NCBI GenBank assembly: GCA_021806545.1
Contig: JAJZXI010000006.1
Span: 1-40,260, forward strand
Reading direction: 5' to 3'
DNA from: Actinomycetes bacterium
GTDB lineage: Bacteria > Actinomycetota > Acidimicrobiia > Acidimicrobiales > Acidimicrobiaceae
Length of the DNA: 40,260 bases
Part shown: one piece after another, positions 927-9,004 of the stretch
Numbering within the stretch: position 1 is the stretch's first letter
Layout of the letters: each line of letters begins with the position of its first letter
The notes under the pieces: generated by a model
What the model saw: the letters and a program-made list of their open reading frames with translations, nothing else
Told to the model about the DNA's origin: nothing
Database searches by the model: none
Program-made: the position numbers and the translations under genes

Positions 927-1796
927 TCAAACCTGAGGATAATCAAGCCCGAGATCGAGGATAGGGCAGGAGTGCGTCAATGCTCCAACCGAGATGTAGT
1001 CGACCCCCGTCTCCGCGATAGCTTGCAGGTTGTAAAGGCCGACGCCACCCGATACTTCGAGACGACAACGTCCTGCGACTCGCTCGACCGCCTCCTTGAT
1101 GGCGGCGACCCGCATGTTGTCCAGGAGGATGAGGTCGACCTCGAGCTCGAGGGCCTGTTCGAGCTGGTCGAGATTGTCCACTTCGACCTCCAGGGGTCGC
1201 GGCGGCTGGTGGCCGCGAGCACGGGCCACCAGGTCCTGCATCGAGGAGAAGGCGAGATGATTGTCTTTGATCAAAAAGGCATCCCAGAGGCCCAGGCGAT
1301 GGTTCTCGCCGCCGCCGCAGCGTACGGCGTACTTCTCTTGGGCCCGTAGACCAGGAGTTGTCTTGCGGGTGTCGCGAATGATCGCGGAGGTGTGCGCTAC
1401 CATGTCGACGTAGGTTCGTGTCATGGTGGCAACACCACTCAGGTGACAGATCAGATTCAACATCGTGCGTTCAGCGGCGAGCACGGTGCGCAATTCACCA
1501 CGGATGGAGGCGATGGTGGTATTGGCTTCGACCCTGGCACCATCGGTGATGATCGCAGAAAACGTTGGATGCGGGCGATCAAAGCGCGCTGCCGTCTGAG
1601 CGAGCACTAACGGTGCGACGGTCTCGCCAACAAAAACACCTGGCGCCCGCGCGACCAGGTCTAGTTGGATGATTCGTTGTTCGACCAAGGAACCGGTGAG
1701 GTCGACCGCGCGATCCCCGCCCGGATCATGAGACGGCGACGTCGGCTCTATCAGATCCTCATCGAGGGCAAGGTTAATGATCGAGAGCAGTGTCAT
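927..1796 (-). CDS. nadC: Nicotinate-nucleotide pyrophosphorylase (carboxylating)
   Basis: Quinolinate phosphoribosyltransferase, which converts quinolinate and PRPP to nicotinate mononucleotide, CO2 and PPi as the third step of de novo NAD synthesis in the cytosol. At 289 residues it has the usual family length. Signature segments are visible: DTRKTTPGLR (142-151), EKYAVRCGGGENHR (154-167), IKDNH (176-180), EVEVDN (203-208), LLDN (224-227) and SGGV (249-252), carrying the basic residues that bind quinolinate and PRPP. It starts with ATG, which overlaps the nadB stop by 4 bases (ATGA), so translation is probably coupled. It is the last gene of the nrtR-nadABC operon. No clear terminator follows. 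Identification is secure. Confidence 0.97.
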   Translation of the reverse strand: MTLLSIINLALDEDLIEPTSPSHDPGGDRAVDLTGSLVEQRIIQLDLVARAPGVFVGETVAPLVLAQTAARFDRPHPTFSAIITDGARVEANTTIASIRGELRTVLAAERTMLNLICHLSGVATMTRTYVDMVAHTSAIIRDTRKTTPGLRAQEKYAVRCGGGENHRLGLWDAFLIKDNHLAFSSMQDLVARARGHQPPRPLEVEVDNLDQLEQALELEVDLILLDNMRVAAIKEAVERVAGRCRLEVSGGVGLYNLQAIAETGVDYISVGALTHSCPILDLGLDYPQV

Positions 1797-3313
1797 GATT
1801 GCCTTTCTACGCGCCTTGGTGGCTGGGACTGATTGAACTCGATGCGGTAGTTAGGATTCTCGGTGATGGCATCGGACCTCGTGTGTGATCCGATGGTTCC
1901 GCGGCGGAGCGTCGCAGCTTGGATGGTCATGGCGACAAGCTCGCGTGCGCTCTGGAGTTCGCTGGCGAGGTAGGGGTTCATCTCGTTGCTCACGAGAGCC
2001 TCGAGCGCAGCCTGCGAGCGTTGGAGTGTCGGGTGGTCGCGCTCTACGCCCAGCCCAACATCGACAATTGCGCTTATTGCCGCGCGACTAGGGGCTCGAG
2101 GGCTAAGCGCGAGGGTCGAGGGGTAACGGAGGCGCTGGCGCAATGTCGGCCGATCCTTGATGTGCGCCGCGGCCCGTCGCCCGAATACGAGTCCCTCGAG
2201 GAGGGAGTTCGACGCGAGTCGATTGGCACCGTGCACACCGGAGTTGGCGCACTCGCCAACTGCGTAGAGTCCTTGGATGTTGGTCTCGCCGTGTGGTCCA
2301 GCTACGATCCCTCCGATGCTGTAATGGGCAGCAGGTCGAATCGGGACTGGCCCGTTAGCAAAGGGGTCATGACCATAGCGTCGGCAGGCCTCGAGAAAGC
2401 TGGGGAAGCGTTTGGCCAACGCAGCCGGACCGATTGGCTCCACATCAAGGAAGCTCATGCCCTGGTGTCGATGCATCGCCAGGGAGACCTTGTCGCGGGT
2501 CGCAAGTTCCCCGGCGGGATCGCTCGCAAAGAGGAAGCGCTTTCCCTCCGCATCGACGATCCACGCACCCGCGCCGCGTAGCGCCTCGGTCGCCAACGGC
2601 AAGGGGGAGCCTGTGAGGGCAATTGCGGTTGGATGGAACTGGGTAAACTCGAGATCCCCGAGGGTAGCACCGACCCGATAAGCGGCGACCATGCCCGTGC
2701 CGATGTTGCCGTCGGGTGAGGTGTGGTCACTCCAGAGCCCGGTAGCACCTCCAGTCGCAAGCACGACGCTCCGCGCCTTGAGTAGCACGAGCGAACCCTG
2801 CTGTTCGACGAGGGCGCCTTGCACGCAGTCGCCGTCGGTCACCAGCTGAACTAATCGGGCAGTCGTTGAGGTGATGTTGAGGCTCGCAGCCCGCCGGGCA
2901 CCCAGAACTCGCATCACGGCCAAACCGGTAGCATCGCCATCGGCATGCCAGATCCTGGCGCTTTGGTGTCCGCCTTCACGCTCGAGCGTCGGTTCGAAGA
3001 CGACGCCGAGCTCAACGAGAAACCTAATTGCCTCGGGTGCCCCTGATACCAGCCGGTGTACCTGATCACGATCGTTGAGTCTGGCACCGGCAGCGAGGGT
3101 ATCCTCGAGGTGGGCATCGATCTCACTCAAGCATGACTCAGCGGCGATCCCGCCCTTCGCCCAGTGGCTCGAGGTCTGGACCGCATCCTGGCTGATCATA
3201 GCGATGCGCAGCGTGGAGGGCAAGGACAGCGCGACGCTATGTGCCCCAATGCCAGCACCCACAATCACGACATCAAAGCCGGTCTCCTCACTCACCGGGA
3301 TCACAGCGTTCAC
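1793..3313 (-). CDS. nadB: L-aspartate oxidase
   Basis: FAD-dependent oxidase producing iminoaspartate from L-aspartate, the substrate of NadA. The N-terminal dinucleotide fold GAGIG is at 19-23, followed by the SSHWAKGGIAA segment (48-58, the family's FAD-contacting S-x-W-A-x-G-G-I-A-A). The flavoprotein core has EFTQFHPTA (222-230), RPAAHYSIGG (326-335) and GANRLASNSLLEG (362-374), and a helical C-terminal domain contains GSHTRSDAI (475-483). At 506 residues it is slightly shorter than the typical 530-540, mostly near the C-terminus, but all active-site blocks are present. It starts with GTG, overlapping the nadA TGA by 4 bases (GTGA). O2 or fumarate could serve as electron acceptor; the sequence does not decide. 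Confidence 0.96.
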   Translation of the reverse strand: MNAVIPVSEETGFDVVIVGAGIGAHSVALSLPSTLRIAMISQDAVQTSSHWAKGGIAAESCLSEIDAHLEDTLAAGARLNDRDQVHRLVSGAPEAIRFLVELGVVFEPTLEREGGHQSARIWHADGDATGLAVMRVLGARRAASLNITSTTARLVQLVTDGDCVQGALVEQQGSLVLLKARSVVLATGGATGLWSDHTSPDGNIGTGMVAAYRVGATLGDLEFTQFHPTAIALTGSPLPLATEALRGAGAWIVDAEGKRFLFASDPAGELATRDKVSLAMHRHQGMSFLDVEPIGPAALAKRFPSFLEACRRYGHDPFANGPVPIRPAAHYSIGGIVAGPHGETNIQGLYAVGECANSGVHGANRLASNSLLEGLVFGRRAAAHIKDRPTLRQRLRYPSTLALSPRAPSRAAISAIVDVGLGVERDHPTLQRSQAALEALVSNEMNPYLASELQSARELVAMTIQAATLRRGTIGSHTRSDAITENPNYRIEFNQSQPPRRVERQS

Positions 3314-4302
3314 GGCCGCGTCCAGATTCGGAGGCTGGGGTCGACCATTCGCTCGACAGCACGGCGCGCCTGGCCGACTACCGTTTCGTCAAGTGAAATC
3401 TCATCACGTGTCGAGGTGAGCGACTCGAGTAGACGCTCAGGTGTGATCCGATTCATATACGGACACTCAGCCCGTGGGTTCACGGCCTCAAAGTGCACCC
3501 GAGGGTTTGCTGCTCGCAGATCACTGAGAATCCCTATTTCGGTGGCTACGAGAACGTGGTCTTGGGTGGTCTTTCTGGCCTCGGCGATCATCTGGTTGGT
3601 CGAGAGGAACCGCACCCTATCCTGTGCGGAGTCTGCGAGCTCGTAGAGTGTGGAGGTGGTGCAACCGCACTCAGGGTGTACCATCAGGCTTGCCGAGGGG
3701 TACTCGTTCATTTTAGCCCGCAGCCTGTCTGGAGAGATATCGGCGTGGACGTGGCACTCACCCATCCAGATGTGCATGTTGGGATGGCCGGTGACGCGTT
3801 GGACGTGGGCACCGAGGAACTGGTCCGGCAGAAAAAGTATCTCGCGTTCTGCGGGGATCGAACTGACGACCTCCGGAGCATTTGACGAGGTGCAACACAC
3901 ATCCGAGAGTGCCTTGACAGCAGCAGAGGTGTTGACGTAGGCGACAACGATGGCTTCGGGGTGTTGAGCCCTCCACGCAAGCAGATCGGCCGCAGTGATA
4001 GAGTCGGCGAGAGAGCACTCTGCGTCATCGGCCGGAAGCACGACGCGCTTGTGTGGGGAGAGTAACTTTGCGGTCTCGGCCATGAAGCGCACGCCACAAA
4101 AGACGATGGTGGTGGCATCCGTGTCGCGAGCCTGTTGCGAAAGATAGAGCGAATCGCCGGTGATATCGGCCACCCGCTTGATCCAGGCAGGCTGGTAGTT
4201 GTGCGCGAGGATGATCGCATGATGTTGGTGAACTGCCTCACGCAGCTGGCGCTCGTAAGCCAGTGGATTCTGTGGCGGTGCAATAATGCTCATTATGAGC
4301 AT
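3310..4302 (-). CDS. nadA: Quinolinate synthase A
   Basis: [4Fe-4S] enzyme condensing iminoaspartate with dihydroxyacetone phosphate to quinolinate. The three cluster cysteines of the family are visible at C96 (AECSLAD), C212 (HPECGC) and C280 (RAECPYM), along with the AHNYQ segment at 33-37 and the ADITGDS segment at 45-51 that line the active site. Length (330) is normal. Two in-frame ATGs, at 4302 and 4293, both lie inside the 21-bp palindrome. Only four bases separate the nrtR stop from the first ATG, and no good Shine-Dalgarno precedes either, so initiation is by coupling or from a leaderless transcript. Cluster and neighbours make the function secure; the exact start codon is not. Confidence 0.96.
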   Translation of the reverse strand: MLIMSIIAPPQNPLAYERQLREAVHQHHAIILAHNYQPAWIKRVADITGDSLYLSQQARDTDATTIVFCGVRFMAETAKLLSPHKRVVLPADDAECSLADSITAADLLAWRAQHPEAIVVAYVNTSAAVKALSDVCCTSSNAPEVVSSIPAEREILFLPDQFLGAHVQRVTGHPNMHIWMGECHVHADISPDRLRAKMNEYPSASLMVHPECGCTTSTLYELADSAQDRVRFLSTNQMIAEARKTTQDHVLVATEIGILSDLRAANPRVHFEAVNPRAECPYMNRITPERLLESLTSTRDEISLDETVVGQARRAVERMVDPSLRIWTRP

Positions 4303-4304
4303 TA
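4284..4304. promoter_or_regulatory. Perfect 21-bp palindrome on the nadA start (likely NrtR operator)
   Basis: Arms TAATGCTCAT and ATGAGCATTA flank one central T, so 20 of 21 positions are symmetric. The palindrome contains both candidate nadA ATGs and ends just before the nrtR stop codon. The adjacent gene product is an NrtR-type repressor with a DNA-binding winged helix, and family members bind palindromes of about this size upstream of NAD genes. On the minus strand a TAGACT hexamer (4304-4309) directly abuts it and could be the -10 box of a nadA promoter with little or no leader. A bound repressor there would block nadABC. Binding by NrtR is inferred. Confidence 0.7.
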
Positions 4305-4306
4305 GT

Positions 4307-4996
4307 CTAGGACGCTGGGCAATCCTTCGAGCCCACTGGTCGGGTTACCCGATACAGCAGCGCGGGGCGCCCCGCGGTCTGAGTGACGACGATATCAAGT
4401 GGCTCGAGATAACCGGAATCGAGAATCTTTCGCCGGAAGTTCTGGGTATGAAGCGAGACCCCCAACAACATCTCCGTGCGCTGCTGGAGATAGGAGAGCG
4501 TAAAGGCTTCGGGTTCGATCTCTTGGATAACCGGTTTGCGATCGAGTGATCGGCGCAGTGTTGTGAGCGTCGCCAACAGGAGTTGGATATCGTGGTCCGA
4601 GAGCTGGCACGTTGGTGTGTCCCACTGCACCAAGTCTTCACCGTGACGGCGGTCCTCGTCCGGAAGGTGCTGATAAAGCGGGATCCACACCAGGCGTTCT
4701 CCATTGGTGAAGCGGCTCTTGGCAAAACCGTAGTAGCACAGCTCCGCGACGGCTGGCTGTCGTTCGAGGTCTTGGGTGGCGATGCTCTGGCTCAATGGCG
4801 AAACGGTCATGCCGATGGTGCGCACCAAGAAGTGTTCAGCAATCGCCTCTAACGGTCGATCGAGTGCCATGAGCGGAACCCTCAGCAGCGAGAGTCGACG
4901 GCCATCCGACCAGACCAGTACGTAGGGATCACGAGAGCCGAGTTGAAAAGGAATCACTACGAGGTCAACTGGTGGGCGTACAGTTGCATCCTTCAT
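4307..4996 (-). CDS. nrtR: NrtR-family (Nudix-related) transcriptional regulator of NAD metabolism
   Basis: A 229-residue protein with an N-terminal Nudix-like effector domain (about 1-150) and a C-terminal winged helix (about 150-225). The C-terminal part carries the family pattern FTLSYLQQ...NFRRKILDSGYLEP...GRPALLYR. In NrtR proteins the Nudix domain binds ADP-ribose or related NAD metabolites and controls DNA binding. The catalytic Nudix box is degenerate: the REUXEE core is replaced around the AEHFLVRTIGM segment, so hydrolysis is unlikely and a sensor role is expected. I chose ATG at 4996 because the 20 upstream residues of the longer frame look non-native. It lies 78 bases after the c-di-GMP gene and 4 bases before nadA. 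It probably represses nadABC. Confidence 0.9.
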   Translation of the reverse strand: MKDATVRPPVDLVVIPFQLGSRDPYVLVWSDGRRLSLLRVPLMALDRPLEAIAEHFLVRTIGMTVSPLSQSIATQDLERQPAVAELCYYGFAKSRFTNGERLVWIPLYQHLPDEDRRHGEDLVQWDTPTCQLSDHDIQLLLATLTTLRRSLDRKPVIQEIEPEAFTLSYLQQRTEMLLGVSLHTQNFRRKILDSGYLEPLDIVVTQTAGRPALLYRVTRPVGSKDCPAS

Positions 4997-5074
4997 ACCG
5001 GCAACATTACCAGGTCCCCAATCCCGCGGGCAGGAGCGCACGATATGTTGGCCCAAGAACTGATGTGCATCACC

Positions 5075-8000
5075 TCAGGCGAGCGCGGCGGGGTCGGGTT
5101 GGCCGTTGATGGCTTCGACACAGACTCTCTCGAACCAGTCAGTGAGTCGATCGACAAGCTCGCCAGGTGGAGTGTCAAAGGAATGGAGTTCGTTGTGCAG
5201 CGCTGCGCCGATCGAATCCGCGAGCCCGCTACGTTCAAAATAGCGAGTCAGGGGACACTCGCTAATCGGGCCACGGCGGAAGTGGCGAGGATTGTGCACA
5301 AACGCCCAGTGGTATGCCATCGCCCCGAGCAACGAATGGAGCTCGCCATCGTTATTGTGCTCATAGGAGTCGGCCCAGCCCAGGAGGTGATCGGTCGGCA
5401 TCGGGCGCGCGATATGAAAGCCTTGACCGTAGGTTGCACCCAGTCGAGCGGCCACCTCTGCCAGCGTAGCATCCTCTATGCCCTCCACCACCACCTCTTG
5501 ACCAGCGTCAATTGCTGACAGGATTAGCGTGCCAAGCAGGTTGAGGGCTGTGCGTGGGTGCCGCTTGATGCGCGCAACGAAGTTGTGATCGATCTTGATA
5601 GTGGTCGCAGGTATATCGATGAGCCGTAGCCAGTTCGAGTAGCCGGATCCCATGTCGTCGATCGCGAGTCTCACCCCCGTGGCCATGAGATCCTCCAGAT
5701 TCGCAGGGTTGGCGATGAGAGGATGCTGGTCGGTCTCGAGCAACTCGAGGATGAGGCGCTCCGAGGGAAATGCGTATCGCTGGAGTATCTCACGAAGCCA
5801 ATTGCCCAGCTCGGGCTTGGCGAGCGTGGTCGCATCGACGTTGATGGTGAGGTCCAGGAGTAAGCCGCCGGCTCGCCATCGTTGCTCAGCCGCCAGCAGT
5901 GCTTCAAGGCCGAGCCGGAACAACTGATAACGTTCGTTGGTTCCTTGGATACTGAGAAATGACTCCGGGCCAACGACCCTCCCGTCCGGGTGGGCAAGGC
6001 GAGCAAGACCCTCGACCTTGGCGAGCCGGCCGGTGGCGAGTTCGATGATTGGTTGGACATACATTCGCAGTCCGCCACTCAGCAAGAGCTCCCGGTAGGC
6101 AATCGCTTGCTCACGAGCAAGGACATTGATCGGGGTAGTGATTCGATAGAAGAGATTCTCCCAACGCTGTTTGAGATTGATGCAAAAGCGGCTCATCCAG
6201 TCCGACGAGAACTGTCCCGGCAACGTGCCAAAAACTAGCAGCAGACCGACGGGTCGCCCAGCAAGATTCTGAATCGGAAGTGCTACCGCCGTGCGAAGAC
6301 CGAGGCGTACGAGACGTTGATTTTGCTCCTCGGTCAGACCCCCGAGGGTGAGGTCGTCGACGACGACCATGCGTGACTCCCTCCACGCCTGGGCGGCGAA
6401 GAGCTGTCCATTCGGACTCGTGGGGTCTGCAGTGATCTCGCAACCAGGGGCATTGAAGACCTGAGCGATCTCTTGTCCACTGGGTCCCGAATAGGTCTCG
6501 ACCAGTAGAGCGTCATTGGCACGCTGCCGACACAGTGCAACGGCCGCGATCCCTCTCAGTTGACCAACGAGCTCCAGCTCCATCTGAACCGTATCGATCC
6601 AACCACCTGCATCGGTTGGAAGCGGGTTCGCGAAGATACCGAAGTAGCTATCGCTGATGGCACTCATCGCATCGAGTTGGGCAGCAAGATCGTCATCAAT
6701 TCGCCGTTCGATCACGCTGATTGCCTGTTTGACGCCTCGAGAGCTCGGGTTTGTCTGATTCAGCGCCTCCGTCAGAGCTAGGCGATAGGTATTCATCGAG
6801 TCAACCAGACCCGCCGCGTTGAGGCCGGTGAGCCAGTGGATGGCGCCGACGCGGGTCGCGGCCTGGTTGAGTGATGCGCGCTCCAGCTCTGGCATCAGGA
6901 TGGCGCCAAGGTGTTCGGCCTGTCGCTGCTTGAGGGTATGGTACTCGCCCTCGCTGAGACGGCCAAGTATTCGCTTGCCGGAGGACGACTCCTCAACGAC
7001 GTGATAGAACGCGGCGACCGCGTTGGCGATGAGCGTCGTAGTTTCGGTCAACTCACTCGCGATGATGGCCGCTGCCTCGACCCCATAGGCAGAGACCATC
7101 TGGGGCATCGGCGAAGGAACCGGGCTTGGAGAGCCAGCATCGGACAGGAGCGTCCACCACCGTTCGCGACGATCCTTGTTTTGCTTCGCGAGGTAGAGTG
7201 CGGCATCGGCGGCTCGAAGCAGGCCATCTGGATCGTCCGCATGGTCCGGGAACACGGCCACCCCGATACTCATCGAGACCGAGATGCCCTCGGTACCCTC
7301 CAACACAAATGGTGTCTCGACCGCGTGATACAGGCGGGCGAGCACCTGATCGAGCTCCTCCAACATCTGCTCCCTCACCGGATCGAGGCCGCTCAACAGC
7401 ACGACAAACTCGTCGCCAGCAAGCCTGACGATGACATCATCGGCAGGTAGTAGCCCGACGAGTCGTTGAGCGAGTTGGACGAGTAGCTCATCGCCGGCGT
7501 GGTGACCATAGCGATCGTTCACGGGTTTGAAGTCATCGAGGTCGATGACGCCAACAGCCAACGAACGATCACTTTGTCTTGCACGCACGATTGCACTCGC
7601 CAGGTGTCTGCTGAGCGCCCTGCGATTGGGGAGGCCGGTTAGCGCATCGTGTTCGGCAAGATAGCTCAGTTCATGCTCTCGCGCCTTGAAGTCCACGATG
7701 TTACGCGCGATCGCGGAGAGATATTGGACATGCCCGACCGAATCGCGGTGCGCCATCAGTACCATCGACAGGGGAAGCACGCTACCGTCCGGCCGCGTGA
7801 TGGTAACTTCCCCTTGCCATCGTCCGTTGGCGGCGGCCTCACGCACCGAGAGCAGGAACGAGTCTTGACCAGCGCGATCATGGATGAGATCGAAGAAGTG
7901 CTGTCCCTCGAGCCTGGCATCCCTCGCGAGGCCTAGGAGCTGGCGTCCTCCGTTGTTCAGGTAGATAAGGGTTCCGTTTCGATCGGTGATTCCTACGCCA

Positions 8001-9004
8001 TCTGAGGTGTTATCAAGAATCGCCAACAGACGCTCCTGGGCGTCGAGCGCTGCTCTCTCATCGGTGAGATCGACCTCGACGACTACGACCCCTACGGTTC
8101 GGGCATGTTCATCAAGGAGGCGGGTAGCTGAGACGTGCACCCATCGTTGGTATTCAGCCTGGCTCACCTGCAGTGTCTCCCAATCAATTCCCTCTTCGCC
8201 GGCGGATAACTTTTCGAGGCGCTCGACGAGGTGATCGAAGTTCGGGTCGCCAAAGACTATGGACGGATCCTTGCCCTGGACTGAATCGAGATCGAGTCCG
8301 AACAGACGAGCACAACCCTCGTTGAACCAGGTGATGTATCCCTGTGCGTCGAGTATGAATACGGCCTCTTGAACCTGTGCGATTGCAGCGGCAAGGCGAT
8401 GGCTCTGGAGCTGCTCGCGCATGGCAGTGATACCGTTTGAGAGATCGCCGGCAAGCCGTTCGAGCAGCAGCTGCTCTTCGATGCCGGGAAGCATTTGCTT
8501 GGCGAAGTACACCACCAGAATAGCATCAACGGAGTCCCGATAGAGGATTGGGAGGGCATGGACACCGGCCAGACCATACCGCTGGGCGGCTTGACGCCAC
8601 TGGTCATTTTGGGTCTCTCTGAGTGCGTGGGCGTCAAAGACGGGACCCCCGCAGCGCCATGCGCGACCTACGGGCCCCTCGCCGGCGGGCTCACCCTCGA
8701 GAATAGACACCTCGATAGCGTCGAGGTAACCACTCTGGCCGCAGCTCACAAGAGGTTGAACCGAGCCGTCCGCGGATGGGCGCCCAATCCAGGCGAGTCG
8801 GACCGGCTCCATCTGACAGATCAACTTGCATAGTTGAGCAAAAAACGTTTCCTCGTCAGGAGAGCTGTGTACCAACAGGCTCGCCCGGCCGAGAAGCTGT
8901 TGGTATTGGTTGTTGCGAGCGAGCCGCCTGCCGTAAGCGTTGCGCTGCACTCCAAATCCGACGGCGACGGTCAACACGGCGATGATCGCGAGTTCGCTTA
9001 CCAT
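5075..9004 (-). CDS. Multi-sensor GGDEF/EAL protein (GAF-PAS-PAS-GGDEF-globin-GAF-EAL-CZB-like)
   Basis: A 1309-residue c-di-GMP turnover protein. Domains in order: one N-terminal membrane helix (4-19); GAF (about 40-195); PAS (about 203-315); PAS (about 325-440); diguanylate cyclase (about 448-615) with active-site AGDEF at 529-533 and no RxxD inhibitory site in front; globin-sensor-like helical domain (about 640-790) with candidate proximal His723 in RVGAIHWLTG; second GAF (about 800-955); and EAL phosphodiesterase (about 968-1210) with EGLAR at 998-1002, N1055, E1087, D1116/D1117, K1137, E1174 and Q1194. The C-terminus (1222-1295) resembles the CZB zinc-binding fold, with possible ligands H1232, C1250, H1270 and H1274. 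Both enzymatic centres look intact. Inputs would be oxygen/haem, zinc and small ligands. Globin and CZB calls are by motif only. Confidence 0.9.
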   Translation of the reverse strand: MVSELAIIAVLTVAVGFGVQRNAYGRRLARNNQYQQLLGRASLLVHSSPDEETFFAQLCKLICQMEPVRLAWIGRPSADGSVQPLVSCGQSGYLDAIEVSILEGEPAGEGPVGRAWRCGGPVFDAHALRETQNDQWRQAAQRYGLAGVHALPILYRDSVDAILVVYFAKQMLPGIEEQLLLERLAGDLSNGITAMREQLQSHRLAAAIAQVQEAVFILDAQGYITWFNEGCARLFGLDLDSVQGKDPSIVFGDPNFDHLVERLEKLSAGEEGIDWETLQVSQAEYQRWVHVSATRLLDEHARTVGVVVVEVDLTDERAALDAQERLLAILDNTSDGVGITDRNGTLIYLNNGGRQLLGLARDARLEGQHFFDLIHDRAGQDSFLLSVREAAANGRWQGEVTITRPDGSVLPLSMVLMAHRDSVGHVQYLSAIARNIVDFKAREHELSYLAEHDALTGLPNRRALSRHLASAIVRARQSDRSLAVGVIDLDDFKPVNDRYGHHAGDELLVQLAQRLVGLLPADDVIVRLAGDEFVVLLSGLDPVREQMLEELDQVLARLYHAVETPFVLEGTEGISVSMSIGVAVFPDHADDPDGLLRAADAALYLAKQNKDRRERWWTLLSDAGSPSPVPSPMPQMVSAYGVEAAAIIASELTETTTLIANAVAAFYHVVEESSSGKRILGRLSEGEYHTLKQRQAEHLGAILMPELERASLNQAATRVGAIHWLTGLNAAGLVDSMNTYRLALTEALNQTNPSSRGVKQAISVIERRIDDDLAAQLDAMSAISDSYFGIFANPLPTDAGGWIDTVQMELELVGQLRGIAAVALCRQRANDALLVETYSGPSGQEIAQVFNAPGCEITADPTSPNGQLFAAQAWRESRMVVVDDLTLGGLTEEQNQRLVRLGLRTAVALPIQNLAGRPVGLLLVFGTLPGQFSSDWMSRFCINLKQRWENLFYRITTPINVLAREQAIAYRELLLSGGLRMYVQPIIELATGRLAKVEGLARLAHPDGRVVGPESFLSIQGTNERYQLFRLGLEALLAAEQRWRAGGLLLDLTINVDATTLAKPELGNWLREILQRYAFPSERLILELLETDQHPLIANPANLEDLMATGVRLAIDDMGSGYSNWLRLIDIPATTIKIDHNFVARIKRHPRTALNLLGTLILSAIDAGQEVVVEGIEDATLAEVAARLGATYGQGFHIARPMPTDHLLGWADSYEHNNDGELHSLLGAMAYHWAFVHNPRHFRRGPISECPLTRYFERSGLADSIGAALHNELHSFDTPPGELVDRLTDWFERVCVEAINGQPDPAALA

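Follow-up and report, generated by a model that had tools for sequence, protein, structure and literature searches.

A putative NadQ-type operator on the nadA start codon, paired with a compact NadQ-like regulator, in Acidimicrobiaceae

Results

In a genome close to Ferrimicrobium (Acidimicrobiaceae), the beginning of the NAD synthesis genes is probably occupied by a NadQ-like repressor. We analysed 40,260 nucleotides of this genome (contig JAJZXI010000006.1 of assembly GCA_021806545.1; hereafter, the window), in which a perfect palindrome lies on the beginning of nadA. The palindrome is very likely the operator of a compact NadQ-like repressor encoded just upstream, which would shut off nadABC at a near-leaderless promoter. 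The type of switch is already known from other bacteria; here, the repressor is shortened and the switch is placed right on the start codon. The evidence consists of the sequence itself, its conservation, the pairing of site and regulator at nadA across phyla, the predicted fold of the regulator and conserved -10 boxes. The features concerned are as follows.

927..1796, minus strand: nadC, quinolinate phosphoribosyltransferase (domain/family matches)
1793..3313, minus strand: nadB, L-aspartate oxidase (domain/family matches)
3310..4293, minus strand: nadA, quinolinate synthase, starting at the conserved second ATG (NadA PF02445, E 5e-104; junction alignment)
4284..4304, no strand: putative NadQ-type operator, 21-bp perfect palindrome TAATGCTCATTATGAGCATTA (sequence, fit to the NadQ consensus, conservation)
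4296..4296, minus strand: inferred nadA transcription start, A (from the -10 spacing)
4304..4309, minus strand: -10 box TAGACT, part of the putative nadA promoter (junction alignment)
4307..4996, minus strand: compact NadQ-like regulator, 229 aa, Nudix-like N domain and NrtR/NadQ winged helix with LHTQNFRR (domain, profile and structure searches)
5004..5009, minus strand: -10 box TAATGT, part of the putative, operator-free regulator promoter (conservation)

The palindrome at the start of nadA

The regulator gene, nadA, nadB and nadC all lie on the minus strand and are tightly packed. As originally described, TAATGCTCATTATGAGCATTA has perfect 10-bp arms and, at 4284-4304, covers both in-frame nadA ATGs (minus strand, 4302-4300 and 4293-4291); it is the sole match within the window, even when three mismatches are allowed. 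The stop codon of the regulator gene is at 4309-4307, leaving two bases, rather than the four first counted, between stop and palindrome, and a -10-like hexamer overlaps both. On its own, the palindrome has no significance: dinucleotide-shuffled versions of the window contained, on average, 0.725 perfect inverted repeats with 10-bp arms and loops of 0-10 bp (0.075 with a loop of 1 only), so the bare repeat proves nothing, and it is conservation that gives it significance.

The original prediction had named a lack of conservation in relatives with the same operon as evidence against itself. We ran this search and the idea survived it, since the site is found at the same regulator/nadA junction in 6/6 congeners searched and, with the window, in 7/7 genomes of the genus. 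The sites of the six congeners differ at no more than 2 of the 20 arm bases. Each congener genome has one exact match to the core, in every case at the regulator/nadA junction, and the window genome has one additional exact core match, within coding sequence; the junction site is the only one kept as an exact match across the seven genomes. Sister genus g5 has degenerate versions of the site in the same place. Half of the site consists of nadA codons, so coding constraint may account for part of its conservation; the upstream half-site is conserved though it falls outside the nadA coding sequence if the second ATG is used.

Among matches away from the junction, that additional exact core match of the window genome (G000, contig 155), inside a CDS resembling a proteasome accessory protein, and a match on contig 153 of G016, inside a gene resembling lepA, were taken as chance. 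Sites with two mismatches differ from genome to genome and are, in several genomes, not commoner than a control pattern. As a separate observation, TATACCCAACATGATCATA is unchanged in 6/7 genomes of the genus (G000:C126:35608-35626 and one place each in G001, G003, G004, G005 and G006).

The site equals the NadQ consensus and recurs beside the regulator

The consensus published for NadQ from seven proteobacterial lineages is ttATRCTCannntGAGYATaa (PMC5343134), and the window site matches it at 14/14 core positions. It also adjoins NAD biosynthesis genes and the regulator gene, as a NadQ operator should. The motif had been suggested to be possibly lineage-specific; that suggestion is not supported, given its identity with the proteobacterial consensus and its recurrence in nadQ-nadA gaps across Actinomycetota and in some Pseudomonadota. 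The window site differs from the mycobacterial NrtR operator, which is GTTTTCGA-N7-TCGAAAAC (PMC6800001), and NrtR sites vary by lineage.

Across several phyla, an operator-like site lies between the genes in 28/30 loci at which nadA adjoins a gene for a NadQ/NrtR-type regulator; a site was counted if shuffled gaps matched it at p ≤ 0.02; four of the 30 loci belong to genomes that are also counted among the relatives. The 28 include the Brevibacterium site TTATGCTCATACTGAGCATAA. One of the two loci without a site comes from a genome of sister genus g7, in which the site is changed, and the other encodes a protein that has no QNFRR helix and groups with NrtR/AraR proteins. A set of 20 nadA loci from relatives lacks a regulator hit next to nadA, and 0/20 have a site with fewer than four mismatches. 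Where the sites carry substitutions, these mostly respect the R and Y positions of the protein-site consensus. The nadQ-nadA gap that holds the site is often 200-400 nt wide in other lineages, enough to accommodate a promoter. At some loci, the nadQ-nadA gap contains tandem operator-like sites whose starts are 21-23 bp apart (L131, 2890 and 2913; L157, 1941 and 1964), and similar pairs occur in L130, L156 and L169.

The regulator is NadQ-like and compact

The only Pfam match of the regulator is the NrtR/AraR winged helix (PF21906, 60 bits). We looked for a Nudix box in the protein and found none, and its recognition helix, LHTQNFRR, is of the NadQ type. The original prediction took the regulator for an NrtR, a reading that our searches do not support: among proteins of solved structure, the nearest in sequence is NadQ of Agrobacterium, and the site is that of the NadQ consensus. 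A single-sequence search returned NadQ 7q91 at 2.7e-13, AraR at 2e-4 and NrtR at 0.07, and a profile that includes NadQ relatives reached 7q91 at 3e-106. With the NadQ profile, the score of the window protein is 92 bits, versus 64 with the NrtR/AraR profile, whereas for the two g5 proteins the two profile scores are about equal. Against the NCBIfam NrtR equivalog cut-off of 400 bits, the window protein scores 29.8.

The predicted structure (pLDDT 88) comprises a Nudix-like domain and a winged helix. The best hits in a structural comparison are the NadQ entries 7q91-7q94 (native protein and complexes with ATP, DNA and NAD; Z 18.6-19.8), with AraR and NrtR (3gz5/3gz6) within about 1 Z of these scores. 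At 229 aa, the protein lacks ~90 aa relative to NadQ (about 300-340 aa), among them the RYELLYEAGL segment of full-length NadQ, which its near relatives also lack. An unrooted tree places the compact group in a separate supported clade beside the NadQ and NrtR/AraR groups. Because of the missing ~90 aa and this clade of its own, we call the protein NadQ-like rather than a strict NadQ orthologue.

Directly upstream of the regulator gene is a GGDEF-EAL-like gene encoding 1309 aa (window 5075-9004, minus strand). The six congeners have relatives of it beside nadQ, with 58-65% identity over the C-terminal 500 aa.

Conserved -10 boxes precede both nadA and the regulator gene

Leaderless genes of Actinobacteria are recognisable by a TANNNT box about 12 bp ahead of the start codon (PMC3160421), and in M. 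tuberculosis, the -10 element is TANNNT centred 7-12 bp before transcription starts (PMC3898074). The TAGACT box at the junction shares its first three bases with the nadQ stop codon TAG and its last base with the first of the operator. It reads TAGACT in 6/7 genus genomes and TATACT in one (TAKACT, 7/7), with TAGTGT or TAGAGT at the same place in g5, and in 7/7 genomes it ends 10 nt before the second nadA ATG. This ATG is present in all congeners; the first, at 4302, is missing in one (ATA instead). An A located 3 nt before the second ATG, the presumptive transcription start, is invariant in the genus. Together, these features suggest that nadA transcription is near-leaderless. A genome-wide search for the leaderless signal was uninformative, as its spacing peaks of 7 and 10 came almost wholly from this locus in the seven genomes.

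The regulator gene is preceded by TARYGT-N7-ATG in 7/7 genus genomes. We looked for an operator before it in the same seven genomes, and the best site has at least 5 mismatches among 14 core positions, in agreement with the original statement that there is no second copy upstream. The idea of an internal operator that leaves the regulator free is likewise supported, because the site lies inside the cluster and the regulator gene has its own conserved -10 box with no operator.

Sister genus g7

In the two g7 genomes, the recognition helix is VHAPNARRR (G012) or LHPGNTRRR (G018), and the nadA junction has no such site. Instead, the palindrome ATATGCGCAnnTGCGCATAT occurs before the regulator gene, once per genome (G012:C1:983471-983490, locus L182; G018:C95:561-580, locus L183), with one base changed in G018. 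This joint change of helix and site fits a link between the protein family and these palindromes, and we regard it as a lead from two genomes.

Discussion

We propose that a dimer of the compact NadQ-like regulator binds TAATGCTCATTATGAGCATTA. The operator starts on the last base of the -10 box and spans both the presumptive transcription start and the start codon of nadA, so that the bound repressor would block RNA polymerase at the near-leaderless nadA promoter. De novo NAD synthesis through nadABC would thus be switched off in cells well supplied with NAD or energy. The repressor gene appears to be transcribed from a near-leaderless promoter of its own, 0.7 kb upstream; as that promoter has no operator, the repressor would be made regardless. 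We infer binding, repression and transcript ends from the evidence above, and the ligand by analogy with NadQ: it may be ATP, or else a nucleotide related to NAD. NadQ is described as ATP-responsive in the title of Minazzato 2022, cited in PMC11452294.

Could the internal site instead act as a roadblock to read-through from nadQ, rather than as a block on a nadA promoter? The tight packing of the genes in one direction would suit such a role. However, the -10-like box holds a constant position with respect to the site in 9/9 genomes compared, whether over the nadQ end or in the spacer, and the wide gaps seen elsewhere can accommodate a promoter; we consider a roadblock unlikely. We give about as little credence to the idea of a diverged NrtR, responsive to ADP-ribose, whose use of a NadQ-like site would be coincidental. 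The shared winged-helix family, the closeness of the 3gz5/3gz6 structural scores and the position of the compact group outside both NadQ and NrtR/AraR are all compatible with it, but the missing Nudix box, the NadQ-type helix, the higher NadQ profile score and an operator equal to the NadQ consensus rather than to GTTTTCGA-N7-TCGAAAAC argue against it. That the palindrome arose by chance, or serves as an RNA hairpin (terminator or attenuator), is highly improbable: although about 0.7 perfect repeats of such size are expected per window, this one is conserved with the regulator over genera and phyla, its substitutions mostly preserve the R/Y consensus of a protein site, and a 1-base loop is poor for RNA.

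The operator reading, which we prefer, places a NadQ-type operator on the NAD synthesis genes of acidophilic Actinomycetota and other lineages of a phylum in which NrtR is the regulator studied so far. A wider proposal, for which we see even chances, is that Acidimicrobiaceae have a compact third NrtR/NadQ branch, which retains the operator code of NadQ without a segment of the canonical protein and represses from a leaderless start codon, and that in g7 helix and operator changed together while the site moved before the regulator gene. Owing to its small size, the regulator could serve as a minimal model for locating the ligand-sensing part of NadQ, and the g7 pair of changed helix and changed site as a natural test of how the winged helix reads DNA.

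Among known systems, AraR of Bacteroides resembles the window regulator in fold and winged-helix family, but it controls arabinose genes and its recognition helix is DKRNFRK. NrtR of Mycobacterium smegmatis, also a repressor of nadABC, has the same targets, a Nudix-like domain and a related winged helix; in contrast to the window, its operator is different, nrtR is on the opposite strand and represses itself, and the ligand is ADP-ribose (PMC6800001). The NadQ (COG4111) regulon of Proteobacteria shares the operator consensus, the nadABC targets and an adjoining regulator whose winged helix carries QNFRR and whose Nudix-like N domain has no Nudix box. The window system departs from it in a regulator shortened to 229 aa and belonging to its own clade, in an operator set on the nadA start codon, with nadA apparently near-leaderless, and in its Acidimicrobiaceae host.
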